DNA of 64,000 nucleotides from Trichomonas vaginalis G3 (Eukaryota; Parabasalia; Trichomonadida; Trichomonadidae): assembly GCF_026262505.1 (NCBI RefSeq), contig NC_067206.1, positions 33,123,896 to 33,187,895 on the forward strand, written 5' to 3'. Made by a program: the position numbers and the translations under genes. Shown here piece after piece: positions 22,386 through 59,910 of this stretch; positions within the stretch are counted from its first letter, which is position 1; each line of letters starts with the position of its first letter. The notes below the pieces were generated by a model. The model was given only the letters and a program-made list of their open reading frames with translations, was not told the DNA's origin and made no database searches.

Positions 22386-22433
22386 GGTGAAGAGGTGAGA
22401 TTTCACCTGTTTTTTCACCTCATTTTTCACCTC
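22386..22433 (+). repeat. Multi-arm hairpin repeat, copy 1 (GGTGA type)
   Basis: Order: GGTGA, AGGTGA, then TCACCT, TCACCT, TCACCTC, preceded by AAAATATATTTTA and followed by TTGAATTTTCATGAA. Two left arms can pair with two of three right arms. Confidence 0.85.
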
Positions 22434-22451
22434 TTGAATTTTCATGAATTT

Positions 22452-22526
22452 CATCGTAAAGACTTTGTCAAGATTTCATCGTAAAGACTTTGTCAAGATT
22501 TCATCGTAAAGACTTTGTCAAGATTT
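22452..22526 (+). repeat. 25-bp satellite, three units in the left end
   Basis: Unit CATCGTAAAGACTTTGTCAAGATTT repeated three times without variation. The right end has nine units of the same satellite in inverse orientation (44730-44953). Confidence 0.85.
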
Positions 22527-22565
22527 CATCGTAATGAGCGTAAATCAGACAAAAATATATTTTAG

Positions 22566-22612
22566 GGTAGAAGGGTATATCTACCCCGTTTTCTACCCTC
22601 TTTTCTACCCCA
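22566..22612 (+). repeat. Multi-arm hairpin repeat, copy 2 (GGGTA type)
   Basis: Same layout and spacing as copy 1, but every arm is changed: GGGTAG, GGGTA, then CTACCCC, CTACCC, CTACCCC. The changes keep pairing intact, which is evidence for a conserved fold. Confidence 0.85.
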
Positions 22613-22684
22613 TATGTACTTACTGAAAAAGTATGTGTTCCATCTGTCATTTTACTCAGAATTTTACACCAAAAATATATTTTA

Positions 22685-22732
22685 GGTGAAGAGGTGAGAT
22701 GTCACCCGTTTTCTCACCTGTTTTCTCACCTC
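22685..22732 (+). repeat. Multi-arm hairpin repeat, copy 3 (GGTGA type)
   Basis: GGTGA, AGGTGA, then TCACCC, TCACCT, TCACCTC with the same AT-rich preface and TTGAATTTTCATGAA tail as copy 1. Confidence 0.85.
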
Positions 22733-22903
22733 TTGAATTTTCATGAAATTTACACCAAAAATATACTACTAGGGTCATTTACGAAGAAATCTCAACAAAG
22801 TCTTTACGATGAAATCTTGACAAAACATAGACAAGAAAGTTCATGAGAAATTAGATGAAGAAGTCTTAACAAAGTCTTTACGAAGAAATTCATGAAAATT
22901 CAA

Positions 22904-22951
22904 GAGGTGAGAAATGAGGTGAAAAAAGAGGTGAAATCTCACCTCTTCACC
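22904..22951 (-). repeat. Multi-arm hairpin repeat, copy 4
   Basis: Inverse orientation: three AGGTGA-type arms followed by TCACCTC and TCACCT, then AAAATATATTTTT. Confidence 0.85.
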
Positions 22952-23074
22952 TAAAATATATTTTTGGGTCATTTACGAAGAAATCTCAACAAAGTCTTTA
23001 CGAAGAAATCTCAACAAAGTCTTTACGAAGAAGTCTTAACAAAGTCTTTACGAAGAAATTCATGAAAATTCAAC

Positions 23075-23115
23075 GGGTGAGAAATGAGGTGAGAAAACAG
23101 GTGACATCTCACCTC
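23075..23115 (-). repeat. Multi-arm hairpin repeat, copy 5 (truncated)
   Basis: Three GGTGA-type arms and one TCACCTC arm; the outer arm and AT-rich tail are missing. Confidence 0.75.
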
Positions 23116-23262
23116 ATATGTCCTTACTGAAAAAGTATGTGTTCCATCTGAAGTTCTTATATACGGGTCTTCCAGGAGCTTTTCACAAAATATATATGTT
23201 TTCATGTTTTGTCACTTTTCTGTCACTTTTCAGGGAAAAAACATTTTTATTATATATATAAA

Positions 23263-24081
23263 ATGAATTTTACAAAACCACCGTTACCGTTCTTTGGAAA
23301 TAAGAGTAGATGTAAAGATATTATATTGAGAGAACTTAAGAAACTACCGAATGGTCTAACATTTGTAGATTTGTTCGGTGGAAGTTTCTATATATCTCAT
23401 TTGTGCCATACAATATTTCCTGACTCAAAGATTATATGCAATGACTTCGACAACTATATGAACCGTCTCAAACATATACCAGACACAAACAAAATATTGA
23501 AAGAGTTAAAAGAAAAGATACCTATAGGTAAGATGGAACGTATACCATTAGATAAGAAAAATATTGTGAGAGAGGTTTTGAAAAAAGCAGAGTATATTGA
23601 CTGGGATAGTATATCTTCTAGACTATTGTATAGTGGTTCTATAAGAGTTCATGACATTGAAACACTTATGTCAAACGTTTTATATCTTAACTATACAAAT
23701 GTTTTCAAAGAGAACATAGAAAAATATACTGAGGGTATAGAGTTTGTGAGATGTCATTGGACAGAGTTGTATGAAAAATATAAAAACAAGGAAAATGTTT
23801 TCTTTATAGTGGACCCGCCGTTCTATAACACATACGATTTTCAATACCAAGTAGACTGGACTTTGAGAGACTCTTTAGAAACTTTAGACGTTTTACATAA
23901 CCATCCATGCTTTTACTTTACATCCGATAAAAGTGGTTTGGAAAGTGTCATGAGATGGTTAGAGGACATACATGACTATGAGTTTAGATACGACAAGATA
24001 GAATATGAGAGAGGTCCTATAAACCGGAAAAAGTGTCATAACAAAGAAATTTTATTGGTAAGTAAATGTGGTTTGAAATAG
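23263..24081 (+). CDS. Dam-like (D12 class) adenine-N6 DNA methyltransferase
   Basis: 272 residues from ATG 23263; the frame is open to 23209, but MNFTKPPLPFFGNKSRC is the expected family start and an initiator-like TTATATATATAAA precedes it. PFFGNKSRCKD resembles the N-terminal motif of the D12 class. FVDLFGGS (residues 34-41) is motif I for AdoMet, and DPPF (184-187) is catalytic motif IV in its DPP(Y/F) form. The enzyme would methylate adenine in DNA. Adenine methylation is reported as the main DNA modification in Trichomonas vaginalis, and Maverick-type genes are a plausible source. It overlaps the next small gene by 16 bases. Confidence 0.88.
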   Translation: MNFTKPPLPFFGNKSRCKDIILRELKKLPNGLTFVDLFGGSFYISHLCHTIFPDSKIICNDFDNYMNRLKHIPDTNKILKELKEKIPIGKMERIPLDKKNIVREVLKKAEYIDWDSISSRLLYSGSIRVHDIETLMSNVLYLNYTNVFKENIEKYTEGIEFVRCHWTELYEKYKNKENVFFIVDPPFYNTYDFQYQVDWTLRDSLETLDVLHNHPCFYFTSDKSGLESVMRWLEDIHDYEFRYDKIEYERGPINRKKCHNKEILLVSKCGLK

Positions 24082-24197
24082 GACTACTTGTTTTAGGTTT
24101 TTTCCATTGTGTCATTTACTTATTTGACGTGGCAGAAAGATATAGAGAATATGAAGATGAACCAATGCCTGCAAATGTCCAGTATATGTACTCGTAA
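24066..24197 (+). CDS. Small single-pass membrane protein (43 aa)
   Basis: ATG lies within the last codons of the methyltransferase gene. Residues 2-20, WFEIGLLVLGFFHCVIYLF, form one membrane helix, followed by an acidic tail (AERYREYEDEPM). The 16-base overlap suggests co-transcription with the methyltransferase. The function is unknown. Confidence 0.55.
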   Translation: MWFEIGLLVLGFFHCVIYLFDVAERYREYEDEPMPANVQYMYS

Positions 24198-24220
24198 GAG
24201 ATATTTTTATCTAATATTAA

Positions 24221-24583
24221 ATGGACGCACAGAACTTAGCGAATGCACAGCAACCTGGACAACCAAACCCAGAGAATATTCCAAATGAAGTTAGAATACA
24301 AACTGCAATGGCAAACTATGGTCAAGTGCCAACAGATGTACAAATGCAAACTGCCATGTCAAATGACGCTGCGTTAGGTTTGCCACCATGGTATGCAAAT
24401 ATGAGATGGAAAGAGTTTTATACAAACCCTGAAGTGGGATATAAACAACTTTATGCAGATGACGCGAACACAGGAGTTGACCCAGAATATGTTTTCTACC
24501 AGAGGAGAAACAGAATGTATGAGCTCCAGTTAAAGAATGCTATGGAACTCAACAGGAAACGCAAAAGACTAGGCGGACATTAG
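24221..24583 (+). CDS. Hypothetical M2 protein (120 aa)
   Basis: Pro/Gln/Asn-rich N-terminus (AQQPGQPNPENIPNEV), a repeated phrase (RIQTAMANYGQVPTD and QMQTAMSNDAALG), a middle WYANMRWKEFYTNPEVGYKQ and a basic tail NRKRKRLGG. ATG follows ATTTTTATCTAATATTAA. The basic tail suggests binding to DNA or to capsid. Not recognised. Confidence 0.55.
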   Translation: MDAQNLANAQQPGQPNPENIPNEVRIQTAMANYGQVPTDVQMQTAMSNDAALGLPPWYANMRWKEFYTNPEVGYKQLYADDANTGVDPEYVFYQRRNRMYELQLKNAMELNRKRKRLGGH

Positions 24584-24601
24584 ATTTTTACATATAGTAA
24601 A

Positions 24602-24844
24602 ATGGGTTTCTTTGGAAGAATAGGAAACTTCTTTCGAAATGTTGGAAGAGGTATATGGAATGGAATAAAATCTGTCGGAAGAGGAATTTGGAACGGTGTC
24701 AAAAATATTGGTAAAAGAGTAGGTCAGTTCGTTGGTATTATACCTAAAGACCCTGAACCAGAAGAGCAAGCTCCTGTTATACAACAGCCTGAACCTGCAC
24801 CACAGTCTAGTTGGCAACCAAATCCAACACCTCAACCGTATTAA
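24602..24844 (+). CDS. Small amphipathic, possibly myristoylated virion protein
   Basis: 80 residues. MGFFGRIGNFFRN starts with a Gly suited to N-myristoylation, then aromatic/basic amphipathic helices with a duplicated phrase (VGRGIWNGIKS, VGRGIWNGVKN), then a Pro/Gln/Glu tail. The pattern is that of a membrane-active minor virion protein, similar in kind to 1547-1783 and 28510-28911. ATG follows TTTTTACATATAGTAAA. Confidence 0.6.
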   Translation: MGFFGRIGNFFRNVGRGIWNGIKSVGRGIWNGVKNIGKRVGQFVGIIPKDPEPEEQAPVIQQPEPAPQSSWQPNPTPQPY

Positions 24845-24848
24845 AAAA

Positions 24849-25697
24849 TCATATTTTTACCGTTCGATAGTAGTTGTATATGAAACTAAGTTCTAAGTAA
24901 AACGCGTGGTATAATGGAATTATTCTCTTTCTTCCATCTGTAGTAAACCATACTTGAAAGTCTGAAATACTTCCACTTGGTGGTTCGTATAGCTTTGTAG
25001 GTTTTTCGTAAAAGTCATTTGCCAAGCATAAAAAAGAGTTTTGTGCACCAGAAAATGAAGCATGAACTATAATAGCATCTGAGTCGAAAACATTTTCATA
25101 TGTTCCATTAGGGTTTTCGACTTCATAAAAGTCCGGGTGTACTGGATATTCTGCAGGCTGATTTAACATCCTCAAAAATCTATACCATGCCAAGTTGTTA
25201 TATTTTGTAGAAATATAAACGTCTTCTCCAAGGTCTTCTATTCTATTGATTTTAACAGTTGCATTTTTCCTGTCATAAACAATATCGAGATGGTACTCTC
25301 CTTCGTCAATGTTGTACTGTTTTGCATATTCGAGATAGATATCGTTTATTTTTTCTTGAAAAGCTTGAAGAGTTGTTTCTAAGTTTACAAGCAAATTCAC
25401 TTGTAAAAGTTTTCCCTGTTCAAATTTCTCATACGTATGTTTTTCTTTGTTATAGTATCGAATTTCAAAAGCGACCGTAAATGGGAAACCATGTATGGCT
25501 TCTGAAATGAACTTCATTCTACGAAAGCCAATAGCTTTTGTGACAGATGGGTCTCTTAACCATCTTAGTGGGTAGTCAAAACGATAGCCTTCATGCTTTA
25601 CGGTCTCTGTCTCAAACTTTTGACCGACATTCGTAAAAAGTTCATCTAATGGTTTAGTTGTAGCAACTCTTGAATTTTCTTTTTCTATTGAAAGCAT
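24849..25697 (-). CDS. Maverick minor structural protein candidate
   Basis: 282 residues, intact. The segment YRFDYPLRWLRDPSVTKAIG, then RRMKFISEAIHGFPF, matches the M3 protein at 60672-61552 (YEYPRHWVEYVGGEKAIEIR). The end GSISDFQVWFTTDGRKRIIP followed by FYLELSFIYNY matches the M1 protein 6243-6722. The repeated presence in three diverged elements and the closing strand pattern suggest a jelly-roll minor capsid or penton protein. It shares an 18-bp divergent promoter with the fibre gene. Confidence 0.6.
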   Translation of the reverse strand: MLSIEKENSRVATTKPLDELFTNVGQKFETETVKHEGYRFDYPLRWLRDPSVTKAIGFRRMKFISEAIHGFPFTVAFEIRYYNKEKHTYEKFEQGKLLQVNLLVNLETTLQAFQEKINDIYLEYAKQYNIDEGEYHLDIVYDRKNATVKINRIEDLGEDVYISTKYNNLAWYRFLRMLNQPAEYPVHPDFYEVENPNGTYENVFDSDAIIVHASFSGAQNSFLCLANDFYEKPTKLYEPPSGSISDFQVWFTTDGRKRIIPLYHAFYLELSFIYNYYRTVKI

Positions 25698-25715
25698 ATT
25701 TTATCTAGAATAAAA

Positions 25716-27536
25716 ATGTCGAAAGAAACAGCGTCTATGAGAGAAATACAACACAACCGACAACTCATTTTGCAAGCTCTAAATAAGAACACAACAAACT
25801 TTTCAAACTATTCTAAGATATCTGAGTCATTGAAAGAAGGAAACTTAAAACTGACGATAAACCCAATGACAGATGAGTTTCTGTTTCAAGACAGTAAGAA
25901 CCATACTGTTTGTATAAATCCAACAAAAAGAACTTTAAACGAGAAACCTATAGATGAACTTCTTTTGAAAGCAGATGTTGGCAACAAAGCTGACAAAGAG
26001 TATGTCATTGAAAAAGTTCAAGAAGAACATGACAGAGCAGATGCAACATATGCAACGAAAGCAGATGTTGACAACAAAGCTGACAAAGAGTATGTCATTG
26101 AAAAAGTTCAAGAAGAACATGACAGAGCAGATGCAACATATGCAACAAAAGAACATACTCATCCTGAACTAGCGGACAAAACATATGTTGACAATAAAAT
26201 GTCAAGTGAAGTGACAAGAGCTGACAAAGAATATTCTAAAAAGACTCATACACATACCATTGCAAATATTACAAACTTACAAGAAACCTTAAACAGGAAA
26301 AGTGACGTTGGACATACACATACCATTGCAAATATTACAAACTTACAAGAAACCTTAAACAGGAAAAGTGACGTTGGACATACACATACCATTGCAAATA
26401 TTACAAACTTACAAGAAACCTTAAACAGGAAAAGTGCCGTTGGACATACACATACCATTGCAAATATTGCAAACTTACAAGAAACATTAGAGACAAAAGC
26501 AGATAAAACATATGTCAATGAAATATACCAAAGTTTAGTTGGAACAACAAAAAATATTGAAACTATTGTTGGTGACTTTTCTATCTATGAAGAAAACAAA
26601 TATTTTAGATGGGAGTTTGTACAGTCCTTAAGAAATGGTATACGGTGTAAACTCATTCCGAAAAATAACAATGAAATGTATGTAAGCTATATAAAGAACG
26701 ATGGTACACAAGTTAAAGTTCCATTAGACAACAACTGCTACTTAAACTTCTATGGAGACGAACAAAAGAAATATTTAAGAGTTTATGAAATGACGGATAT
26801 GACATTGTCTAACGTAGCTCCAGCACCATATTATTATGACTATGGTGTTGACGCACGTGTAGACCCAAAAAAGCAAACATTATATTTAGATTATTATAGA
26901 TATAAAAGATATAATGCAATAGAAAAAACGAGAATAGTATACTATTATACAGATGACAGAAATAAATATTATAGTCAAGACTTTACCTACCCTGAAAACA
27001 TAAGATTATATTTTAAAAAATATTCTGACACAAACCAGAAGAAACCTGAAATAGTTGCACTATATTTTAAGTTCAAAAGAGACAATCCTATAATATCTCA
27101 TATGTTTGATTTAATGAACCCAGTAGGTTCTATTTATACATCTATGGAAGCAAGAGGTCCTCAAGCAATGTTTGGTGTTGGTGCATGGGAACAAATAGTC
27201 GACAGGTTTTTGTATTGTGCAAACTCTTCAAAGGAAACAGGTGGAAGTAAAACGATTTCAGGTGAAAACCTACCTGCGCATAGTCACTACGTAAGTTTAA
27301 CTACATCTCGAGAAGGTTGGCATAAGCATAGATATTGGGATTGGACAGGAATGACAAAAGGTAAAGGATATGATGTTAAAGACGACGTTAAGTTTGCTAT
27401 AAATTGTTACTGGGATGACACTTGGGGAGAAGGAGACCATACACATCGCGTTTCAGGATATACGCAAACAACGGGACAAAGTAAAGACTACATGCCACCT
27501 TACATGACAGTTTACGCATGGTATAGAATTGCTTAG
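25716..27536 (+). CDS. Trimeric tail-fibre-like protein, intact
   Basis: 606 residues. The shaft has KADVGNKADKEYVIEKVQEE and HDRADATYATK repeats, then four units of HTHTIANITNLQETLNRKSD (22 residues, 66 bp; about 26248-26480). The tip starts at VNEIYQSLVG. It contains HMFDLMNPVGSIYTS, MFGVGAWEQIVDRFLYC, GENLPAHSHY, WHKHRYWDW and GDHTHRVSGYTQ, the His-rich pattern of phage baseplate/fibre tip domains. It presumably decorates the virion vertex and binds the host. The tip DNA is nearly identical to M1 (8309-9320), while shaft and N-terminus differ. It overlaps the convergent integrase by 4 bases. Confidence 0.88.
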   Translation: MSKETASMREIQHNRQLILQALNKNTTNFSNYSKISESLKEGNLKLTINPMTDEFLFQDSKNHTVCINPTKRTLNEKPIDELLLKADVGNKADKEYVIEKVQEEHDRADATYATKADVDNKADKEYVIEKVQEEHDRADATYATKEHTHPELADKTYVDNKMSSEVTRADKEYSKKTHTHTIANITNLQETLNRKSDVGHTHTIANITNLQETLNRKSDVGHTHTIANITNLQETLNRKSAVGHTHTIANIANLQETLETKADKTYVNEIYQSLVGTTKNIETIVGDFSIYEENKYFRWEFVQSLRNGIRCKLIPKNNNEMYVSYIKNDGTQVKVPLDNNCYLNFYGDEQKKYLRVYEMTDMTLSNVAPAPYYYDYGVDARVDPKKQTLYLDYYRYKRYNAIEKTRIVYYYTDDRNKYYSQDFTYPENIRLYFKKYSDTNQKKPEIVALYFKFKRDNPIISHMFDLMNPVGSIYTSMEARGPQAMFGVGAWEQIVDRFLYCANSSKETGGSKTISGENLPAHSHYVSLTTSREGWHKHRYWDWTGMTKGKGYDVKDDVKFAINCYWDDTWGEGDHTHRVSGYTQTTGQSKDYMPPYMTVYAWYRIA

Positions 27537-28492
27537 TCGTCATGTTCCACTTCTTTAGCATATTCGTCAGGAGTTGTCTTATATTTGTTAGGAACTGTCT
27601 TTGAAAGTATACCACCTTGAACTTTGACAAGTTTGAAACGAGGTCTGACAATAGTAGTTTTATCTTCTGCTTGCAGTCTGTACATTTTGCCATGTTTGCC
27701 TAAAACTTCATAATATTCTCTTGTATACTTTCTTCTATTTTTACGAACACGAATGCGAGTACCTGTCGAGTTCCCATTGTTGTCATAGTCAATAGTATTT
27801 TCATATGGGTCGCGTTTAGGTATTTCTATTTTTACTTTGTCACCTTTCTTAAGTTTGAAGCCTGGCATTCTTTCTTGTTTGTCTCTTTTGACTAAACTAT
27901 TAAATATATAGTCTTTCTCTAAGTCAGGGTTGTTTTTCATTTCTTCGGGGGAGTGGTTTCCCAAACCTTTTTGTTTACGGCTATTGTAAATATTTAAAAC
28001 TTGTCTCATCTTTGCCATGGAGAAGTGTCTATATTTGTCGTCATATGACATTTCATCTACCTCACCACCTTGTGGTTGGTTTAAGTCTCTTAAGATTTTT
28101 ATACAACTGTCAATGACACCAAGAGCAGAATGGTTTTGGTCGACAATGAAATATTGGTTTACATTTTTTGAACGCAGATAGTTTTTAATATCGTCTGATT
28201 TGAAAGAACTTTCACAGTCAGATGTCAGTTTTGTTGGATGGTATTTGTCAACGAATATTGTCAAAGCAGTTTTCACATCTAAAATATTTTTGGACCATAA
28301 TGGTATGGCTTCACAGTATCTTGTGTTTTGACCAACAAATATTAGCCAGTATGGTGGTCCATCTTCTCTATACCTCGGAATGTTTTCCAAGATATCCATA
28401 AACCAAGCATTTGGTGTTGAACTAAAGATTTTTACCATGAGTGCTTTCTTTGTCGCTTTAGAAACATAGGGGTCCTTGTTTGGATTCGTCAT
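27533..28492 (-). CDS. Retroviral-type integrase of M2
   Basis: 319 residues in one frame. Core: WFMDILENIP with Asp33, KLTSDCESSF with Asp92, NHSALGVIDSCIKILRDL with Asp128. The Asp92-Asp128 spacing (35 residues between) is that of D,D35E integrases, but the third acid is Asp, not Glu. The C-terminus has FKLKKGDKVKIEIPKRDPYE and a basic RIRVRKNRRKYTREYYEV, an SH3/chromo-like DNA-binding part. It lacks the zinc-binding HHCC head and the long N-terminal extension of the M1 enzyme. It would insert the element ends and create the 5-bp duplication. Confidence 0.85.
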   Translation of the reverse strand: MTNPNKDPYVSKATKKALMVKIFSSTPNAWFMDILENIPRYREDGPPYWLIFVGQNTRYCEAIPLWSKNILDVKTALTIFVDKYHPTKLTSDCESSFKSDDIKNYLRSKNVNQYFIVDQNHSALGVIDSCIKILRDLNQPQGGEVDEMSYDDKYRHFSMAKMRQVLNIYNSRKQKGLGNHSPEEMKNNPDLEKDYIFNSLVKRDKQERMPGFKLKKGDKVKIEIPKRDPYENTIDYDNNGNSTGTRIRVRKNRRKYTREYYEVLGKHGKMYRLQAEDKTTIVRPRFKLVKVQGGILSKTVPNKYKTTPDEYAKEVEHDD

Positions 28493-28509
28493 TTTTTACC
28501 CTATAAGAA

Positions 28510-28911
28510 ATGGGTTTATTTGGCGCATTAGCAGGAGTTGCATCCAGATTTTTGCCCGCAGTGGGAACAATAGCCAGAGGTGTATTTGGAGTTGGAAGGA
28601 AGATTTTGAGTACATTAGGTATACTTAAAGAGAAAGCACAACCTATTATACAAACTGTACAGAAAGGTTGGGATGTAGCACGAGATGCAGCAAATCTTAT
28701 TCCAAATCCTGAAACAAGAGGAAAAGTTCAAGGATGGATGGACAATGTAGGAAGACAAGCAGGAAACTACTATAACAAAGCAAATGACTACTATAACCAA
28801 GCAGGACACTATATGGACCAAGGTGAAAGATTCTTTAACAGAGGATATAACCATGCACAACAGTGGGTAAACAATAACCAACCGCAACCACCTCAAACTT
28901 GGGGAATGTAA
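28510..28911 (+). CDS. Amphipathic protein VI-like virion protein candidate
   Basis: 133 residues. MGLFGALAGVASRFLPAVGT may be N-myristoylated and forms an amphipathic helix, continued by a GARGVFGVGRK-like stretch. The C-terminal half is Tyr/Asn/Gln-rich with repeats such as NYYNKANDYYNQAGHYMDQG. It diverges from the integrase across 17 bp. Composition suggests a membrane-active or internal virion protein. The function is unproven. Confidence 0.6.
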   Translation: MGLFGALAGVASRFLPAVGTIARGVFGVGRKILSTLGILKEKAQPIIQTVQKGWDVARDAANLIPNPETRGKVQGWMDNVGRQAGNYYNKANDYYNQAGHYMDQGERFFNRGYNHAQQWVNNNQPQPPQTWGM

Positions 28912-28930
28912 AATTTTTTACTGAGATGAA

Positions 28931-29083
28931 ATGAACAATACAGCATTGAGACAAATGGGTTCAAGATGGATTTGTCGGCTTCCAGCAGTTACACAACGTG
29001 TTTGTCAAGTTCTTCCTATACCTCAGGAAGTTTTAGACCGACTTAAAAAACAACAACAACCAGTTGAAAACAAACCAAACTAA
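28931..29083 (+). CDS. Small M2 protein (50 aa)
   Basis: MNNTALRQMGSRWICRLPAV, then LPIPQEVLDRLKKQQQ. The 20 bases before its ATG (TTTTTTACTGAGATGAA) are repeated exactly before the next gene at 29103, marking a shared promoter or duplicated leader. The C-terminal helix recalls the small M1 proteins at 9398-10473. Confidence 0.55.
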   Translation: MNNTALRQMGSRWICRLPAVTQRVCQVLPIPQEVLDRLKKQQQPVENKPN

Positions 29084-29102
29084 AATTTTTTACTGAGATG
29101 AA

Positions 29103-31094: not shown

Positions 31095-31267
31095 AACCAT
31101 ATATTTTTACATATATTAAATGCTTCAGGTTGAAAAACAAAGAACAAAAGTGGCTCGACCTCAAAACAAACATTTTATGAGCTTACAAAGGGTGTTATGA
31201 ATGAATTCAGCAACATACATCCTGACCTCGTTCATTTTGTTGCTAAATTCAGTAAAAATAATGTTTA

Positions 31268-31315
31268 GGTGAAGAGGTGACATCTCACCCGTTTTCTCAC
31301 CTCTTTTCTCACCTC
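31268..31315 (+). repeat. Multi-arm hairpin repeat, copy 6
   Basis: GGTGA, AGGTGA, then TCACCC, TCACCT, TCACCTC; tail ATGAATTTTCATGAA. Confidence 0.85.
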
Positions 31316-31678
31316 ATGAATTTTCATGAATTTCATCGTAAATGTTTTGTCGAAACTTCTTCATCGTATATGTTTTGTCATGATTTCATCGTAAATGTTT
31401 TGTCATGACTTCTTCGTAAATGTTTTGTCATGACTTCTTCTTCGTACATGTTTTGTCAAGACTTCTTCGTATATGTTTTGTCAAGACTTCTTCGTATATG
31501 TTTTGTCAAACATGAACGTACATGTTTTTTCACCTGTTGAATTTTGTATAAAAAGCAACCCGCTGTTTTCCGCCGGTTGGTATATTCTTCACAAAATGCT
31601 TGTTTTGAGGTCGAGCCACTTTTGGCTCCACCTGTTTTTTCAACCAAAACTCATTTTTTTCAGCAAAAATATATTTTA

Positions 31679-31726
31679 GGTGAAGAGGTGAGATTTCACC
31701 TCTTTTTTCACCTGTTTTTTCACCTC
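31679..31726 (+). repeat. Multi-arm hairpin repeat, copy 7
   Basis: GGTGA, AGGTGA, then TCACCT, TCACCT, TCACCTC; preceded by AAAATATATTTTA. Confidence 0.85.
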
Positions 31727-31807: not shown

Positions 31808-32540
31808 ATGTTAGCAACAACAGCACCAAACTCTTTAGTCATGAACCCACATCTATGTTAGTAGAGATGAAAGCTTCATTCCTTCTTCATATACTTTCGA
31901 AACAGAAATCCAGAAAGATAAAGCAAGAACTTCTCCAAGGAGATTTAGATTGCACTGCAAAAGATGAAACAAATGAACAGTATCTTTATGAAATGCAGGA
32001 CCTCATCGACCATCTACCTAAACTTCCTGAAATTCAGCAGCAAAGCTCACTATTCCTGAATTCGATGAAATAGAAGTGAAACCAACTGACTCAGTAGAAA
32101 TAAAGAAGTTCATACGAAAGGTAAACTATGAGTTTCTAGGATTTCATTGCAACCACAAAGTCATGGACAAAGATTGCGACATGGTATATAAGAACATCTC
32201 TGACATATACAAATCTGAAGAATTTAAGACCTACGACAACTTTGTTTCGTTAGTTGCAAAATGTGTTTGGGAAATAAGAGATAAAGATAGTAGGGGTAAG
32301 GTATGGAACGAACAAATAAAACCCGCTATGTTCGAGATGAAGAGAGCAATTGACGCCTTAGTTGTTTTAGCAGGTAAGGTTTCAGAATATAACGCAAAAA
32401 TGAACCCGCAATGTTCTAAATGTAAAGCAGCAATGAGGAAATATAACTATTCTGTCAAAGAGATAGAACGTATGCGAAACGACTATGCAGATTTAAAGAA
32501 AGAAGCAGAAAAACCAGCAGAAGATAAATGGACATGTTAG
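31808..32540 (+). pseudogene. Hypothetical M2 gene, two frameshifts
   Basis: The initial ATG (31808, MLATTAPNSLVMNPHL) stops at once. The continuation is read in a second frame (31855-32073, QYLYEMQDLIDHLPKLPEIQ) and a third (32076-32540, KKFIRKVNYEFLGFHCNHK). Frame changes lie near 31855 and 32050. The C-terminal part has CSKCKAAMRKYNYSVKEIER and is helical. Not recognised. The start context TTTTTATTTTTATTGTAAGAAC is the same type as at 33129 and 33836. Confidence 0.55.
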
Positions 32541-32719: not shown

Positions 32720-32726
32720 AATAACT

Positions 32727-32775
32727 GAGGTGAAAAAAAGAGGTGAAAAAAGAGGTGAAATCTCACCTCTTCACC
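32727..32775 (-). repeat. Multi-arm hairpin repeat, copy 8
   Basis: Three AGGTGA arms, then TCACCTC and TCACCT and AAAATATATTTTT. Confidence 0.85.
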
Positions 32776-32905
32776 TAAAATATATTTTTGGGTCATTTAC
32801 GCTCATTACGAAGAAGTCTTGACAAAACATTTACGATGAAATCATGAAAATTCATGTACGAAGAAGTCTTGACAAAACATGTACGATGAAATCATGAAAA
32901 TTCAT

Positions 32906-32953
32906 GAGGTGAAAAATTAGGTGAAAAAACAGGTGAAATCTCACCTCTTCACC
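32906..32953 (-). repeat. Multi-arm hairpin repeat, copy 9
   Basis: Three AGGTGA-type arms (one TTAGGTGA), then TCACCTC, TCACCT and AAAATATATTTTT. 25-bp satellite-like units (GAAGAAGTCTTGACAAAACAT) lie just before it. Confidence 0.85.
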
Positions 32954-33128
32954 TAAAATATATTTTTATTGAATTCAGCAACAAAAATCTGAGTAAAATG
33001 GCATATGCTTGCTTCCCTCGGAAACCGAGAGAAGGGATTCCGTATGAAATTCATGAATTTCCTTAAGACAGAAAAAATAAAGTTAGTTTTTATAAAATAT
33101 TTTTTTATTTTGTATGTAAGAACAGGAA

Positions 33129-44155: not shown

Positions 44156-44308
44156 TTTAAGTGAAGTTAAAAAGCGGTTTTCGACAGATGTTTTATTGTG
44201 ACTTCTTCGTAAAGACTTTGTTAAGACTTCTTCGTAAAGACTTTGTTGAGATTTCTTCGTAAAGACTTTGTTGAGATTTCTTCGTAAATGACCCAAAAAT
44301 ATATTTTA

Positions 44309-44356
44309 GGTGAAGAGGTGAGATTTCACCTCTTTTTTCACCTCATTTCTCACCTC
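44309..44356 (+). repeat. Multi-arm hairpin repeat, copy 10
   Basis: GGTGA, AGGTGA, then TCACCT, TCACCT, TCACCTC; counterpart of copy 4 in the left repeat. Confidence 0.85.
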
Positions 44357-44528
44357 TTGAATTTTCATGAATTTCTTCGTAAAGACTTTGTTGAGATTTC
44401 TTCGTAAAGACTTTGTCAAGATTTCATCGTAAAGACTTTGTTGAGATTTCTTCGTAAAGACTTTGTTGAGATTTCTTCGTAAATGACCCTAGTAGTATAT
44501 TTTTGGTGTAAATTTCATGAAAATTCAA

Positions 44529-44576
44529 GAGGTGAGAAAACAGGTGAGAAAACGGGTGACATCTCACCTCTTCACC
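44529..44576 (-). repeat. Multi-arm hairpin repeat, copy 11
   Basis: Three GGTGA-type arms, then TCACCTC and TCACCT; counterpart of copy 3. Confidence 0.85.
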
Positions 44577-44649
44577 TAAAATATATTTTTGGTGTAAAAT
44601 TCTGAGTAAAATGACAGATGGAACACATACTTTTTCAGTAAGTACATAT

Positions 44650-44696
44650 GGGGTAGAAAAGAGGGTAGAAAACGGGGTAGATATACCCTTCTACCC
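44650..44696 (-). repeat. Multi-arm hairpin repeat, copy 12 (GGGTA type)
   Basis: GGGGTAG, GGGTAG, GGGGTAG, then TACCC and CTACCC; counterpart of copy 2. Confidence 0.85.
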
Positions 44697-44729
44697 TAAA
44701 ATATATTTTTGTCTGATTTACGCTCATTA

Positions 44730-44953
44730 CGATGAAGTTTTGACAAAGTCTTTACGATGAAGTTTTGACAAAGTCTTTACGATGAAATCTTGACAAGTCT
44801 TTACGATGAAGTTTTGACAAAGTCTTTACGATGAAGTTTTGACAAAGTCTTTACGATGAAATCTTGACAAAGTCTTTACGATGAAGTTTTGACAAAGTCT
44901 TTACGATGAAATCTTGACAAAGTCTTTACGATGAAATCTTGACAAAGTCTTTA
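44730..44953 (-). repeat. 25-bp satellite, nine units in the right end
   Basis: Unit CGATGAAGTTTTGACAAAGTCTTTA, alternating with a variant reading CGATGAAATCTTGAC; the third unit lacks one base. The left end has only three units. Confidence 0.85.
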
Positions 44954-44976
44954 CGATGAAATTCATGAAAATTCAA

Positions 44977-45024
44977 GAGGTGAAAAATGAGGTGAAAAAA
45001 CAGGTGAAATCTCACCTCTTCACC
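44977..45024 (-). repeat. Multi-arm hairpin repeat, copy 13
   Basis: Three AGGTGA arms, then TCACCTC and TCACCT; counterpart of copy 1. Confidence 0.85.
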
Positions 45025-45225
45025 TAAAATATATTTTTATTGAATTCTGTATAATATTCTGAGTAATATGACAGATGTTTATATAACACTTTCTCCGGTT
45101 TATAGGACCTCTCTCATATTCTATCTTGTCATATCAAAACTCATAGTCATGTTTGTCCTCTAAGACTTCATTTATACTAAACATCTTCGGGGCTAGAAGG
45201 CACGAAGTGCCTGGAAGCCCCACTA

Positions 45226-45268
<43 letters not shown>

Positions 45269-45273
<5 letters not shown>
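45269..45273. repeat. Target-site duplication of M2, right copy (AGAAT)
   Basis: Follows the terminal T-run; identical to 22147-22151. Confidence 0.8.
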
Positions 45274-51946: not shown

Positions 51947-52716
51947 TTGGAAAATTTTTGGGGAAAGTCATCTGAAGAAGATGACGATCCCTGGAATAGT
52001 TATTTTCCAATTCAGTTTACAGGTAATCCAATCAAAAATCGTCAGAACTGTAATCTAGAGACCAACAATCACCAGTATTTCTTAGATGAGTGCATTTTTT
52101 TTGATGATAATAACCGAGTTATCTACTTTTACCCAATTGAAAACTCTCTATTCCTACATAATCGGTGTTCTTTTAGTAATTGCATATCAAAAGAAGATGG
52201 AACTTGTATTTACTACGTTATTGGCAGCAATAGTTCAATTGTTCAACGAAAATTCTGTTGTACAAAATGCCAAAGCTCAAAAAGTGGCCAATTTTCATAT
52301 ACAGAAGTTGGCACAGATAACTTAAACTTTGTTATTGAAAGTTCCCTTTTCGATGTAGGAAATGAAAGTGTTGGTAGTTTTACATTTTATACAATGAGTG
52401 ATAATATTGTAGTTTCATCAACAAATTTCTCATCATGTAAAGCTACTTCATATTCTGTTGGATGGTTTAAATGTGATTCACGTAAATACACAACAACATT
52501 TAATTATTCAACTGTTGTTAATAATTTAGCAACAAATAATTATGGTCAAATGATAAATATTCACTATTACGCTTTGATTGATTCATGTAATATTATAAAT
52601 AATACTAATACACAATCAACATATGGAATTATTTACCATCAATATAATTCTCTTACTGTAAAAAGTTGTTCTTTTATTAACAACACTGGTCCTGAAGGTT
52701 CATATTTGATATTTAA

Positions 52717-54989
52717 GGATACCCTTACGTGTCAGATTTTTTGCGCATACGAAGAAGTCATGCTAGACATGAGCTATAAACCTGAAATTTTAGCAACATA
52801 TTTAAAACTTTTTAAACTACAATACACTTTAATATTCAAGAACAAAAATATTCTTTTTAGAAATTACATAATTATTTTATGTGAAATCTATATAAAAACA
52901 TATTTTGCGAGCGTAACTTTTTTCTTTATAAGCACCTTATATGACTGATAAACTGTGAAGGCACATAATTGTTAATTCATAGAGTTGATATGTTTCCAAA
53001 ATTGAGAGGAAATTTGAAAATTGAATACCCTTTCAATTCAATTTTCAAAAGATATCAGCTCCTTCAATAATTGAAGGACGATTTTGATCATTTGCTCTTA
53101 AAACAAGTATGCCATGGAGAAAAAAGTTACGCTCGCAAATCTGAAATATAACTATCATATAAAAAATTAAATTTCTAATTTTTTACTCTATAGATATTAT
53201 TGGCCACTTGTGTAATGCATAAAAGTTTATGTCATATGCATACATTTGGAAGTATGGGAGACGAGGGAAATTACTTCTATGAGGCACTAGGATTTTTAAA
53301 AATTTCTCTATCGGACTCACCATTCAATTTCTCGAAAATTAAAAAAAATCAATAATAGCTAAAATGTATTATGCATAACAAATTTTAATGTTACACGGTA
53401 TTTTTTGAACTTCATGACATGAATTTTCTTTATATTATTTTTTTTTTTGGATTTTCTATGATTTATGCGATAGGCTGGAACAACATTGTAAGTGCAATGA
53501 TATCATTTATAGAGAAATCTAAAACTTCAGCATTCAGAACTCGCAACCACAAAAATATTCATTTGCTAAGTAAGTAAAGTTGATTAAGTTCGACACTTAG
53601 CTTTTATACGTAAAACCAAGTGTGTATTGTTATTTCTTGTTAAATTATTGAGAAAAAAATAAATTGTAAGAGAAACGATACTGATTATTGAAATAATATT
53701 GAGGGTAGCTGCAGATTTCTTCATTAACATGCCGGAAATTTGTTAATCTTGGTTTTCTATCATAAAATCTGTCGAAGAATCTAAAAACGGAGATATGAAA
53801 TAGAGATCATGTAAATCTAGAGTATCCTGTCAGAAAAATAGACTAAGCATGTAACCCTTTTTTGGTCATAAACACTTTTTACCACTTAGTCATACAGATG
53901 ATCATTAAATTTAAACGAGCACTTTTTGTCAGAATTTATTCTTTTACAAAGACAGAAGATTTTAGTATTATTTAATATTAGTGCTGTAGCAAAATTCAAA
54001 AAACGGTGAAAATTCAGTGAATTTGTGAATTCACTTTTTTTTCGACATTTTTCTTGATATATCCATGCACATTAAGAACACAGCTTTGATACGCTTAAAA
54101 AAGCATATTTCATATGAAATTGTTAAAGAAATAAACAATTTATATAAAAATTGCACTTATGGGCAGTTTAGATATATAATTTATATATAACATATATACA
54201 AATCCATAGACAAAGTGCAATAACTACAATGTTGTAGAAAATTACAGCAGAAATACTGACTTTTTGAAGGATAATAAGAATTCTTCTAAATGTTGTATTT
54301 TTATAATTTGATTGATTTTTTTTACTATTTCATTAATCTTTTATGAATAATAATTATTTTTAATATATGTGCTATTAAAATTTCAAATTTTGACTAATAT
54401 ATCTAAGTTATCTGAACGAAACATTTAGAAAATATCATACTTACATTGAAATAGCAAGTAGAGCATATTAATAGCAAGTTTCTTGGCTTTATATCTATCA
54501 TCTATTGTTGTTTGATCAAACAAAATTCACTCTATTATATGGTGTCAATTAATTAAAACAATTTTTAATAGTTATTTATTTAGTGCGAATAAGTGCAAAC
54601 TCATAAATGAATAACTTAATAGTAGAAATGAATTATCTGATATAAATCTCACATTTTGTCCATCAGAAATACTTTAATTGCATACGCATAACTATTAGTA
54701 ATACGTCTGGAGTGTCAATTAATAACAATCCCACAACAAGTAAAATTCAGATTTTTATTAAACTTATTTTTTCCTAAAAGTTTTCTCAAATTACTATATA
54801 TACATATGTGGATAAAATAATAGTAATATTGTAAAAAATTAGATAATTTTTTTTATTTGAGAACCTCTCAAAAGTTCATTCAATTTATCAATTGTTTCAG
54901 TTTGATGTATATTCATTTCTGGAGCCTAAAACTTTAGCAATCATGACAATATCATATTCTCTTTCTAACTACGCAATGTAAGGGTATCC
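52717..54989. mobile_element. TTAA-flanked insertion B (non-autonomous)
   Basis: 2,273 bp between TTAA at 52713-52716 and 54990-54993. The ends form a 12-bp perfect inverted repeat: GGATACCCTTAC at the left and GTAAGGGTATCC at the right. No coding frame longer than short chance frames is seen. It contains the nested palindromic unit 52904-53139. The TTAA target is shared with insertion A, but the end sequences differ. Confidence 0.8.
52904..53139. repeat. Nested MITE-like inverted repeat
   Basis: TTTGCGAGCGTAACTTTTTT at the left end faces its exact complement (AAAAAAGTTACGCTCGCAAA) at the right end, enclosing 236 bp. No clear target duplication is visible. It lies inside insertion B. Confidence 0.65.
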
Positions 54990-55225
54990 TTAACAATGAT
55001 CAATTAACAGTTGATAGTTGTTACATTGACAATTCGATTTCATCAACATTTAAAAGAAATACTGTAGAACCTACTAATACAAGAGAACTATTTACTAACA
55101 ATTTGATTCATTTTTCAACTGGTAATTGCCAAGCAGAATTTGCAATTATCAATAAAAGTATTTCTGAAGTTAATGAACTTTCTCTTTTTTTGCAAACTTT
55201 AGTAAACATTTCCAAATCTTCATAA

Positions 55226-55499
55226 ACTAAAGTCTACAATCATTATTAAAAACATATGATTAGATACTCTGCCTCCAATTCATTTTTTTTAATATATAGA
55301 GAGTTACATGAGGCATTAACAACTTCATTCTCCATGCTTTTTCATGATTAAATATTGCTTTTGTTGAGATCGTTTCAGAAGGTAAAAATTGCATCCATAA
55401 CGGGATAATTTGCATAAAATGAGAGCAATCTTATAGGATGTATCTAATGCCAATTTATTTAGAAATCATTTAGTACGAAAATGATCAAAATATAAGTAC
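55226..55499. other. Intergenic remnant sequence
   Basis: AT-rich. It includes a diverged copy of the 51540-51670 segment (TTTCAGAAGGTA, ATAAAATGAGAGCAATCTTATA). No gene. Confidence 0.45.
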
Positions 55500-56215
55500 T
55501 TCATGTTGCAAGTCAATGCGGAAATCTAGAACTTATTAAATATCTGATTGAATGTGGCGGTGACAAAGAATCAAAGAATGATTGGAAATCTACTATATTC
55601 ATTAAAGCCTCAGAAAAAGTTCAACTTGAAGTTGTTAAATATCTTATTTCTATTGGAGCTGATAAAGAAACAAAGAATAATGAAGAATGTAATCCATTCA
55701 TCATTGCATCACACTTTGGTCAACTTGAAGTTGTTAAATATCTTATCTCTTTTGGTGCTGATAAACACCACACATTTGCGCATCAAGATATGGTCAACGT
55801 GATGATGTAAAATATCATATATCTGTTGATGCTAATAAAGAAGCAGGGAATAAACTTGGAAATACTCCACTCTTTAAAGCATCAAATAATAATCATCTAG
55901 AAATTGTTAAATATCTGATTTCCGTTGGAGCGAACATAGAAGCAAAGAAAAATGATGAATATACTCCACTCATTAGTGCATCACACTATGGCAGATTTGA
56001 TGTTGTTACATATCTTATCTCTACTGGAGCCAATATAGAAGCAAATGATAAATTTGGAAATACTCCACTCTTGAAAGCTACAATTAATGGTCAACTTGAA
56101 GCTGTTAATATATTATTTCTTTTGGTGCCAATAAAGAAGCAATGGATAATGAAGGTAAAATGGCAATTGATCCTGCTAATGGATCTGCAAAAAACAATCT
56201 AAAATCTCAAATTTC
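55500..56215 (+). pseudogene. Ankyrin-repeat gene fragment
   Basis: Ankyrin repeats are read in two or three frames: GNLELIKYLIECGGDKESKN, LEVVKYLISIGADKETKNNE, then NTPLFKASNNNHLEIVKYLI and GNTPLLKATINGQLEAVN. Frame changes lie near 55795 and 56110, and no start codon or head domain is present. It is a decayed copy of the expanded trichomonad ankyrin family. Confidence 0.8.
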
Positions 56216-56512
56216 CCTATTTATGATTTCTTTTTCAGTGTCTTTTCATGATAATATATTGCTTTTATGAAGAGAGTTTCAGAAGGTATTGAATGCATTC
56301 TTATAGGATGTATCTTATCCAAATTTATTTCAACTATCGTGATCCGTATTGCCAACTATTTCTTATGACTATCTTCTAAGTTCTGAAAATTATCTGGACA
56401 AAAAGAGTGTATAATTTTCATTGTTAGTATTTATTAAAGTATTCTGATGCAGTGAAAGAATAAAATTGTACTAAGAAGCCATTTTAATAAATGAATTCTT
56501 TATTATTTCATC
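56216..56512. other. Intergenic region with repeat segment
   Basis: 56216-56330 is a third copy of the segment seen at 51430-51680 (CCTATTTATGATTTCTTTTT, TTTCAGAAGGTATTGAATGC). The rest is AT-rich. Confidence 0.5.
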
Positions 56513-57519
56513 TCAAAATGCATAGCATTTAACTGGTTCAACAAGAAGATGTTGCCGACACTTATCGCAAGAAATGCACTTGATTGGTTTTCCTTCTAAG
56601 AGATGTTGAACCATATGTGGATCTGCAATTGTTGGGCGTCCGAAAGAAATCAGGTCAGCCCCAAGTTCAATTCCTTTGATCATGTGTGTTTTTTTCTAAT
56701 GCTATCAACAATTGCAATCTTTGCATCAGTACCTTTTCTTAGAATTGGAAGTGTTTTAATATGCCATCCACCTTTAACTGGACGAGCAGTTTTTGGATCC
56801 AAAGAGTTCCTGACAGCTTTCAGGGTATTTGAATATTCCCATAGATCAACTCCGTTAGTTGATCCACATATTTTGGCAACTTCTTCTGCAACTAATCCTC
56901 CATTGTAACCATCATCAAAATTGATTTTTGTTGCAATAAGGAAGTCTTTGCCGCACTCGCGGCGAATTGCTTCAACACATTCCTTGAGCATGCGAGATCT
57001 GTTCTTTCTGTTACCGCCATATTAATCTTCTCTTGTATTAGTAAGTGGAGAAAGGAATAAAGAGAGTAAATATCCATGTGCAGCGTGTATTTCAATTCCG
57101 TCTGCTCCAACATTTTGCGCTTTTTTAGCAGCATTCACGAAAAGTTCAATTGACTCGGAAATTTCAGAAAGGGACATAAACTTGCCATTTGTCTTGATGT
57201 TACGACAATCTGCAATTTGCATGATTGTTTTGGCACCTTTTGAATGAATATAATCAATAGTTTCACGCCAACCTTCTGCATGCGCGTCAGTGTGTAAGAT
57301 GGCTTGACCAGGAAGAGCTCTGGTTTTCTTATGTGTTGCATAATATCCAAGAGTAATGAGTCCAAACTTACCATCTGCAAGATCTCTATAATATTTCTGG
57401 TATTTTGGAATGGCAAAGCCATTTTCATCACAGTCATGCATGTATGTTGGTGATTTCATGAACCTATTTGGTACGATGCATTTGTTTATCTTAACAGGAG
57501 TTAATAGTTTGTCCAACAT
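56513..57519 (-). pseudogene. Old Yellow Enzyme family oxidoreductase, broken
   Basis: The N-terminal frame (57022-57519) has LTPVKINKCIVPNRFMKSPT and GIEIHAAHGYLLSLFLSPLT NTRED, the FMN-enzyme core with its His pair. An in-frame TAA then precedes YGGNRKNRSRM, where the family reads YGGS.ENR.R. The frame continues (VAKICGSTNGVDLWEYSN) to near 56690, where a run of A causes a shift; the last part (LGADLISFGRPTIADPHMVQ, and a Cys-rich end CISCDKCRQH) ends at 56513. It would use NAD(P)H and FMN to reduce enones or similar acceptors. Confidence 0.85.
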
Positions 57520-59299
57520 TCCAGAAGAAAAATGATTTGTTTGAAATGTAAAAAATTTTGAAAGGTATTGCTGTCAGAAAAATTACAATTAATTCAATTA
57601 TGATGGTTTTACATTGAATTTGCAAATCAGCTATCGTCTAGTTACTCCTATTCCTCTAATTGTTCTTACCCAATATTTAAACAAATCAAGCTTGTCTATG
57701 TGAATTCACAATAGTCATGTGAATTCACATATCATTCAGAATTTGAAACATGTACTTTTCGCTAGGCTTTAACGCAGATACAAAGGAGATATAGCTTGGT
57801 TATTCTCAATTTCGCTTGTACAGTGACCTAAAAAATTTGTTAGTTGTCAGAATGCTCCTTGGTGGAAAAAGTGACGCGAATCTCATTAAATCTCTGTGAA
57901 TTGTGGGTCCAGGCAGGAAAAACTTTCAAATAACAGATAATGAATGCTAAGCAACTTATAAAATGCAAAAATACGATATTTTTATTGCTAATTAAACAAT
58001 TGTTTATATTGGCGTCAAAAATTTTCTCACTGGGTTTTCGTCTATCAATCCCAGCTCATTATATACGCAACCAATCAAAAATCTGATATGGGAGTCCAAG
58101 GCTAACTTTTTGTTGTCTACCTAATAAAAGAGGAAGCAGCATTAGTGAGAATAATCGCAAATATTCAATTTAAATTATCTTTTTATTCTTAATTTAAAGT
58201 GACAAAAAGAATAAAAAAACTATTCTAAGGCATGTTGTTATGTAAATAAGACTAGACATCATATTTTATGTTATGAAAAAAAAATATTTAGAATTTTAGA
58301 ACAAAATAAATAGAAAAAAATAGCATAACTTATGGATGTGCGTATATTAAATTTAATAAATTAAGAGAAATTATTTTTGGCGCCAAAATTATTCGTTAAC
58401 TCTCAAATTTTTCTGAGTCAATAAGCCGCCAAAAAAGTGTCATTTCTTTATAGGAAAGGAAACCTATTTGACGAACAATCCGGACACTAGTGCCTCAGCG
58501 AAATTCCCCAAACCCACCAATCCCCTCCCTGCTGTTGTGCACCATCGATGGAAAGTAAGTCATCAATAGTCTCTTTTCCTGATTTCAAGCTAACGTTAGA
58601 TCATTCATGAAAGAAATCATTGCCTTTCATCAGCGACTTTCGTTATAACTGCGCTGCTCTCAAGTTCATCTTGAGAAATTTACGTAATAACTGAATTCCC
58701 AAAGTTCTTTAGGTGATCCAAAACACTGTAGCTGCTTGAACTTTGGACGAGCCTCGCACCCCAGAGAATAGAAATCCCAATCTTGCTTATGTTTAGTTGA
58801 ATTAGTATGCAGCAGTACAGCTCTGATACCACAAGATCGTGATGTATACAAAGTCACAACGCTATTTGATTCAACAACTAGCTAGTTTTGACATCAAATT
58901 GCAAAATTTGACTTCGTTATGAGCTCTTTGTAGCAAAAATACATTACACTTAAAGACTAGTTGCTAGACTGTAGTAGTTTGTTCGTATATATTTATTTTT
59001 CCCCAACGTATTGCATACTACATTTTGACAAGACTTGCAACCTTATAGTAACCTCGTTGGGAATTGTTCAAGCAAAGCGTAGGTAGTTAAGGTCGAGTAA
59101 GAGTTCTTCTTAAATCTTTCACTGAATGAGTAGGTGTTGGAAGAACTGTTCTCTAAAGCGATACAGTTGCGCTACATGTTCGTCAACTTGTCTAGAAATA
59201 AATATATCATTTGTTTTATACGTTTTTTCGTAATAAATCTATTTGTATTTGTTGTATTTGAGTATGAAGATAACAAAAACAGATAGATAGATTACCTAA
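57520..59299. other. Long intergenic region before M3
   Basis: About 1.8 kb with no gene supported on either strand. Short inverted motifs (GGCGCCAAAA, GCCGCCAAAAAA) occur near 58379-58436. A less AT-rich stretch near 58490-58560 (ACCCACCAATCCCCTCCCTG) was not identified. Confidence 0.45.
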
Positions 59300-59477
59300 C
59301 AAGTGTACGGAGGCACTGCGCGCCTCCTTACCCATTATATGTGAATTTGACACTTTACAAAACCGTTAACGTATATTTTACAAATCAAACGCAAAAACTA
59401 ACTTAACCTTAAATATTTACAAAGCCGCCAACCACTTCACCTCACTAACGAACTCACTAATGAAAAAATAAACGTTC

Positions 59478-59762
59478 TCATAAATTTTCTTCTATATCTT
59501 CATCGTCAATGTTAACTCTATTGTAGTCATACTTGAAGTCATAAAATTTCTCAAGTTTTGAAATGCATAGTCTTGTTAACTTACCTTCATCATCATAAGT
59601 TTTTATAAAACTACCATGACAATCTTTATAAACAGTCAGTGTATAGTCAACTGGTCTAGGATGAAGTGTAAAGAACATGTTATACTCAGGAAGGAAGAAT
59701 AAATGTTTAAATGTATGTTTGTTATATTTTTCGATTTGTATGAGTTGCTTTTGTTCTGTCAT
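59478..59762 (-). CDS. Hypothetical M3 protein (94 aa)
   Basis: MTEQKQLIQIEKYNKHTFKH, then EYNMFFTLHPRPVDYTLTVY and an acidic tail NIDDEDIEENL. It is the outermost gene of M3, reading toward the left end. ATG lies in TTTTATTTTTATATAA (minus strand). Not recognised. Confidence 0.5.
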   Translation of the reverse strand: MTEQKQLIQIEKYNKHTFKHLFFLPEYNMFFTLHPRPVDYTLTVYKDCHGSFIKTYDDEGKLTRLCISKLEKFYDFKYDYNRVNIDDEDIEENL

Positions 59763-59864
59763 TTATATAAAAATAAAATAAAAAATAATTTTAAAAAATA
59801 AACTTAAAAATAAATGATATCACCACCCTCACACGTATGAAAACATAGCACAAAAATAAATTTA

Positions 59865-59910
59865 GGGTAGAAGGTTAGATCTAACCCGATTTCTAACCTC
59901 ATTTCTACCC
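59865..59910 (+). repeat. Multi-arm hairpin repeat, M3 copy (nested GGGTA and GGTTA arms)
   Basis: Order: GGGTAG, GGTTAG, then CTAACC, CTAACC, CTACCC. The outer left arm matches only the last right arm, and the inner left arm only the first two. Pairing is thus kept, although outer and inner arms have different sequences. Confidence 0.85.

Follow-up and report, generated by a model that had tools for sequence, protein, structure and literature searches.

A putative family of hairpin-forming repeats at gene-module borders in Trichomonas vaginalis Mavericks

We analysed a 64-kb window of Trichomonas vaginalis G3 (the whole stretch of 64,000 nucleotides, positions 33123896-33187895 of its contig in an assembly of 180.85 Mb), in which a short multi-arm repeat unit recurs within three Mavericks (Polinton-type elements), named here M1, M2 and M3. 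These units may well be a repetitive hairpin-forming DNA family native to Trichomonas Mavericks, where they would form the shared borders of exchangeable gene modules. Five direct observations bear on this: in a small sample the units were confined to Mavericks, they bracket a gene, the neighbours of that gene vary, the left flank is independent of the class of arm, and mosaic units occur. According to passages of a published report, Mavericks make up approximately 73 Mb of the T. vaginalis genome and their subclasses are distinguished by the order of their open reading frames (ORFs) (PMC7845603). The preliminary description of these repeats had called the family undescribed. This stands for the exact sequence, which is new in the literature searched, since no description of it was found in the titles and abstract openings of the papers listed on Trichomonas with Maverick, Polinton, or hairpin or palindromic, or of work on DUF3839, but hairpin-forming repeats as a kind are known from passages of an earlier paper (PMC2800124).

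Each unit is approximately 60 bp long and consists of a self-complementary AT-rich preface, a left arm, 3 nt, a second left arm, 4 nt, and then right arms spaced about every 12 nt. Three right arms are present in 142 of the 165 units with both flanks, two in 12, four in 8, one in 2 and five in 1. In the predicted fold, the left arms and the spacer pair with the right arms, and alternative registers are possible. Mean minimum free energy in the sense orientation was -16.4 kcal/mol for the GGTGA class (n=29; shuffles -8.4), -16.8 kcal/mol for the GGGTA classes (n=11; shuffles -8.5), -12.9 for pure TGTTA units (shuffles -4.3) and -12.0 for mosaics and others (n=34; shuffles -6.5; range -20.8 to -1.7). 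The pure classes are predicted to fold far below their shuffles on either strand. Other short palindromes (CCGCTTAGCGG, AGACCCTTTGGGTCT and GGCGCTTTGCGCC) adjoin units in several sampled loci (L057, L060, L063, L076 and L013:1521-3300), and in L076 a short palindrome stands between the second and third right arms.

Searching the genome for the motif AAAAATATATTTTNGGTGA with up to two mismatches gave 5708 + 5941 = 11,649 places against 28 + 23 = 51 for the reversed control, an abundance that is not due to chance; the total includes perfect-preface units with first arm GGGTA or TGTTA. Exact first-arm counts were 1220 + 1293 for GGGTAGA, 258 + 301 for TGTTA and 23 + 38 for GGTTA. Of 20 loci of 10 kb taken at even spacing, 15 were on contig 1 and 5 on contig 2; units were found in four of the ten that match Maverick proteins of the window, one of these ten matches spanning only 249 bp, and in none of the other ten. 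Two arm-class patterns matched nothing in viral_contigs, the TGTTA class being outside that search. Two of 40 places chosen by GGTGA were not units (L061 and L178). Twenty of the 559 TGTTA places were sampled and 19 carry TGTTA in both left arms; among these 19 units, TAACA is the third right arm in 13 (one shifted by 1 nt), the first in 14 and the second in 10. Of 20 sampled among the 61 GGTTA places, 13 and 6 belong to two other modules and one is unit-like (L118), with the inner nested pair matching and the outer pair mismatched. The same AT preface precedes these two quite different modules, which begin GGTTAGATGGTTTTTAGGTG and GGTTAGATGGTGAGATCTCAGA (13 and 6 of the 20 GGTTA places, L117-L136), and a GGGTA form of the GGTTAGATGGTTTTTAGGTG module stands at 4 of 40 GGGTA-chosen places (L034, L039, L042 and L171).

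Four arm words occur in the family (GGTGA, GGGTA, GGTTA and TGTTA), and the arms change together across it, as had been proposed from the window, with the nested pairs matching best. We write L1 and L2 for the left arms and R1 to R3 for the right arms. Sampling relied on the preface and first arm alone (as for L001-L008), on the upstream flank alone, or on loci taken for position or DUF3839. The pooled count covers 159 units with all five arms among the four words; it leaves out L005, which overlaps L004, as well as the right terminal repeat of the window and any unit that is spaced differently or contains an arm word outside the four, and two places enter it twice (L001/L029 and L116/L192), with no effect on counts of distinct sequences. 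Both nested pairs match in 129 of the 159, L1-R3 in 145 and L2-R1 in 139. The other left-right combinations match less often (L1-R1 107, L1-R2 115, L2-R2 133, L2-R3 121), and arms on the same side match in 125 (L1-L2), 135 (R1-R2), 116 (R2-R3) and 108 (R1-R3), so that the arm-match counts favour nested pairing. Three classes account for 108 of the 159: GGTGA throughout (75), GGGTA-GGTTA nested (20) and GGGTA throughout (13). These class counts lean on contig 1, because it supplies most of the sampled units.

Copies at one fixed position, the site of the M3 unit, could be compared directly. The upstream flank of this site, with a second form of the preface, occurs at 734 + 794 = 1528 genome places, and among the first 100 listed are many plus/minus pairs approximately 20 kb apart, as expected of element ends. 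Forty copies chosen by this flank were read, or 43 together with L008, L009 and the window; 34 of the 43 have canonical spacing and were analysed, and nine with other spacing were set aside. Among the 34, 23 are GGTGA throughout, three are nested GGGTA/GGTTA and eight have at least one nested pair broken. In L077 and L106 the left arms belong to one class and the right arms to the other, with a central breakpoint. Most changes at this site replace one class by another or give mosaics, the outcome that copying between repeats would be expected to produce. Such copies, across classes and mosaics, provide a large natural data set for separating selection on the fold from inter-repeat copying.

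Gene borders were clearest around DUF3839. In eight of eight contexts, sampled from 150 scored matches, units stand on both sides of the DUF3839 gene, and in seven the closest unit on the 3' side is at -5 to +9 nt relative to the stop; the frame of the eighth (L114) stops prematurely. The neighbours of the bracketed gene vary: KilA-N lies 5' in L013 and 3' in L003, a poxvirus A32-type ATPase is found in L002, DUF7777 in L115, and HNH_3 and T5orf172 in the window (DUF3839 in L002, L003 and L013 was identified by sequence, not by a Pfam run). Units also border other genes, with the M3 site in the relative L009 standing 9 nt behind a DUF4107 gene and a unit in L013 coinciding with the stop codon of a 136-aa ORF. 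Many units lie away from any ORF.

The flanks of 113 units outside the M3 site were also compared. Left flanks touch the unit, yet they show no association with arm class (V 0.22; mean after shuffling 0.23). There are 28 combinations of left and right flank among the 113 units, where 31.5 (29-34) would be expected under independence; an earlier count on 101 units gave 29 against 31.7 (range 29-34). A mobile mini-transposon is not favoured as the main explanation, given this lack of linkage between left flank and arm class and the lack of an empty copy at the one site tested, where an exact-match search for 0-25 nt between the M3-site flanks found none against the 1528 upstream-flank matches.

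Thousands of similar copies occupy module ends and terminal repeats, and recombination among them, or template switching from one to another, could join different left and right neighbours. The same traffic would copy arm words between units as blocks or half-blocks; block copying would keep the arms mostly matched and a crossover inside a unit would leave a mosaic. We infer that recombination between units produced the patterns observed, and the fold may promote it. Several results weigh against this account. The two flanks of a unit show a weak association (V 0.34 for the 113 units, where shuffling reached at most 0.32), which is stronger in 28 hold-out units (11 combinations against 16.3 expected, 14-19), and the right flank is associated with R3 (V 0.50; at most 0.42 on shuffling); flanks have therefore been exchanged widely yet not freely. 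Across the 34 fixed-site copies, heterozygosity is 0.090 in the arms, 0.181 in the spacers and 0.116 in the coding flank, and in the 23 pure GGTGA copies, whose arms are invariant by class definition, spacer heterozygosity is 0.076; arm variability is lower than block copying alone would predict. Counted per distinct sequence, nested order also gives more matches than random order (45 against 32.4, with relatedness of the sequences uncorrected), but with one count per haplotype it is not clearly better (16 against 13.4, P 0.16). In addition, no crossover event was itself observed, and common descent links the copies compared.

The concerted change of the arms had been taken as the mark of selection for a fold in DNA or RNA, and this step was not supported. 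A tree-aware covariation test, written by us after the R-scape idea and distinct from R-scape itself, found none of 1035 column pairs significant at E<=0.05, whether on 80 or on 91 distinct units, and no nested arm pair did better than E=17 on the 91; moreover the classes are few and the mosaics break pairs. Power was low: on the 80-unit tree, simulated pairs were recovered in 1 of 60 cases at one compensated change, 12 of 60 at two and 49 of 60 at five. Selection for the fold is thus unproven rather than disproved, because the test is weak. The sets used had been chosen by arm words (at least three exact and none more than one off), and for that reason arm conservation was judged on the flank-chosen fixed-site copies only. 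The preliminary description had itself named two outcomes that would speak against selection, a lack of covariation genome-wide and copies explained by conversion of a few founder sequences, and both largely hold for the units sampled across the genome.

Among other explanations, hairpins selected for their fold at transcript boundaries are a lesser possibility. An RNA hairpin after the stop would mark or protect the 3' end, or block read-through on either side of a gene. The units directly behind the stops of DUF3839 (seven of eight contexts), of DUF4107 in L009 and of the 136-aa ORF in L013 fit this, as do good predicted folds on both strands and arms that vary less than spacers at the fixed site. 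An opposite-strand stop lies within 30 nt on the right-arm side of 12 of 75 units (those in loci of 2 kb or more), where 500 draws of the null gave a mean of 3.3 and a maximum of 8, but these 12 are not independent, because the DUF3839 contexts share descent. Starts on the same strand within 150 nt on that side show no excess (12/75; the null gave a mean of 6.9 and a maximum of 15). A unit is missing behind most M2 ORFs, where no search was made for other palindromes, and several of the gaps could not accommodate one; the many units with no ORF close by and mosaics that fold as poorly as -1.7 kcal/mol likewise weigh against a role at transcript ends. Published passages point both ways, in that mimivirus transcripts are polyadenylated at hairpins (PMC4402537), whereas Maverick ORFs are almost silent, only 25 of 38,656 Maverick and mariner ORFs passing an RNA-seq threshold (PMC7845603). 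Evidence from expression will be hard to obtain, because these ORFs are nearly silent and the elements are covered by small RNAs.

It is rather doubtful that a DNA-binding protein of the element, acting in replication, transposition or transcription, recognises the units as arrays of sites, with the arms as five half-sites whose words changed along with the protein. A 5-bp word present five times in each unit, at regular 12-bp intervals on one side, would suit such an array, and so would the many units in the terminal repeats of M2 and the lower variability of arms than of spacers at the fixed site. However, the second class nests two words (GGGTA outside and GGTTA inside; GtttG, 20/159), which a single site word does not explain, and different classes lie side by side (22386 and 22565 in the window; L001).

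Integron attC sites carry the boxes GTTRRRY and RYYYAAC, and a site read by its shape would be a further candidate. The units would then be recombination sites known by their shape and not by their sequence, on which, once folded, a Maverick-encoded enzyme acts; it would tolerate any arm word provided that the arms match, and would move genes such as DUF3839 and KilA-N as cassettes from element to element. If true, integron cassette exchange would have a parallel in virus-like elements of a eukaryote, but we consider it improbable. GTTAGAT/ATCTAAC, which fits the attC boxes, occurs in units with GGTTA or TGTTA before GATC, but the leading GGTGA class (75/159) has no GTT box. The only integrase domain among 40 Pfam-scanned proteins was rve, no search having been aimed at tyrosine integrases. 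Least probable of all is a hairpin source for the small RNAs of approximately 34 nt that cover silenced Mavericks, since, although the units fold and small RNAs are found over 4,731 of the 4,808 Mavericks annotated, the passages of that report in which the term occurs mention hairpins for microRNAs only (PMC7845603).

Within the window, all 15 positions given in the preliminary description hold the sequence described (Table 1). The plan of two left and three right arms is exact in 12 of these units under a strict scan (fixed spacing, up to two mismatches allowed, none found) and imperfect in three: the unit at 23075 lacks the preface and first left arm, the one at 32727 has one extra base between right arms, and that at 9814 in M1 has only two right arms. 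All 13 units reported for M2 are present, but four pairs mirror each other letter for letter over the 69 letters compared (22386 and 45024(-), 22565 and 44696(-), 22685 and 44576(-), 22951(-) and 44309), so M2 holds nine separate units. Its nine end units sit within terminal inverted repeats that pair 22141-22537 with 44873-45269, 22465-22824 with 44437-44796 and 22857-23057 with 44203-44403. The two units reported with GGGTA/TACCC at every arm do carry those arms, but they form one such mirror pair, a single unit in the two ends of M2, and thus count as one observation of the change. Arm change is therefore seen once in M2 and once in M3, where the unit is as described, with GGGTA and GGTTA on the left and TAACC, TAACC and TACCC on the right. 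The units had been said to lie only between genes. The arms of all 15 are outside ORFs of at least 100 aa, and the preface of the unit at 44309 shares 2 nt with one ORF at its mechanical TTG start.

Table 1. Repeat units and associated features in the window.
Feature	Position	Strand	Basis or remark
M2 left terminal repeat region, five units and 25-bp tandem arrays	22141..23121	.	Inverted repeats, tandem arrays
M2 right terminal repeat region, mirror of left	44203..45269	.	Inverted repeats
Unit with AT-rich preface, arms from 22386, GGTGA class	22372..22431	+	Identical to 45024(-)
Unit, five arms all GGGTA/TACCC	22551..22610	+	Identical to 44696(-)
Unit, GGTGA class	22671..22730	+	Identical to 44576(-)
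Unit, GGTGA class	22906..22965	-	Identical to 44309(+)
Truncated unit without preface and first left arm	23075..23121	-	Sequence inspection
Unit, outer 5' side of DUF3839 module	31254..31313	+	Strict scan
Unit, inner 5' side of DUF3839 module	31665..31724	+	Strict scan
DUF3839 reading frame, profile positions 89-239 of 242, between inverted units	32076..32540	+	
Unit, inner 3' side of DUF3839 module, extra base between right arms	32729..32789	-	
Unit, outer 3' side of DUF3839 module	32908..32967	-	Strict scan
Unit in M2 right terminal repeat	44295..44354	+	Strict scan
Unit in M2 right terminal repeat	44531..44590	-	Strict scan
GGGTA unit in M2 right terminal repeat, mirror of 22565	44651..44710	-	Strict scan
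Unit in M2 right terminal repeat	44979..45038	-	Strict scan
M1 unit with two right arms only	9814..9862	-	
M3 unit, nested arms GGGTA GGTTA / TAACC TAACC TACCC	59852..59910	+	

Tandem arrays of 25 bp, of the TTTCATCGTAAAGACTTTGTCAAGA type, lie between units in the same gaps (22448-22534, 22972-23059, 31332-31532, 44371-44483 and 44727-44960). The DUF3839 frame of the window starts at profile position 89 and ends 188 nt before the 3' unit; this copy looks broken, given its late start in the profile and a gap of 188 nt against at most 9 nt in seven of eight relatives. DUF3839 matches are all from T. vaginalis among the 120 of 286 matches listed. DUF3839 as a recognisable transposase was unsupported, and its AlphaFold2 model was useless (pLDDT 43.8). 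Some DUF3839 proteins of approximately 310 aa (P0016, P0022 and others) bear the NCBI name 'organellar and viral DNA polymerase type B', which looks carried over because the precomputed Pfam column gives only DUF3839. DUF3839 and KilA-N genes in L003 and L013 have a near-identical AT-rich 5' leader before the start codon, as if leaders had been exchanged too. Maverick proteins of M2 include phage tail repeat and Gp10 C-terminal domains (window 25716-27536), and an M1 protein carries a Gp10 C-terminal domain (window 7985-9268).

In comparison with known systems, the nearest likeness is to the repetitive hairpin-forming elements (RHE) and double-hairpin elements of mitochondrial genomes, including those of sponges, for which passages of one paper discuss roles in RNA processing and as preferred recombination sites, both unproven (PMC2800124). 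As described there, RHE are short repeats that fold into one or more hairpins and occur in many copies between genes, and the present units likewise have many dispersed intergenic copies and, when complete, are foldable. Presence and absence at equal sites is a further mark of RHE, and exact empty sites numbered zero at the one site tested here. Unlike RHE, the present units are nuclear, lie in Maverick elements at more than 10,000 places, follow a 2+3 arm plan with several matched arm classes, and stand at module borders and in terminal repeats. Since they are found in Mavericks on large contigs of T. vaginalis and not in organelle DNA, we regard them as a variant rather than as a member of the mitochondrial RHE.

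The hairpins at the 3' ends of mimivirus genes are similar in that, at some genes of a virus-like element, a hairpin follows directly behind the stop. According to the passages available, however, mimivirus hairpins have no sequence conservation, whereas the present units strongly share sequence (PMC4402537). The mimivirus type also stands behind essentially every gene, while the present units follow only some genes and occur 5' of genes as well. As for a conserved structured RNA in the Rfam sense, there was no significant covariation by our own code, which had low power, and no match at gathering score across the window.

The lambdoid phages carry linker (boundary) sequences, short stretches common to different elements that mark the junctions at which gene modules are swapped. 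To our knowledge, these linkers do not occur as hairpin repeats in thousands of copies. Like them, the present units are short shared sequences at the borders of modules that appear to be exchangeable. Overall, a border repeat at more than 10,000 places would offer a concrete and testable account of how genes are exchanged among virus-like elements.

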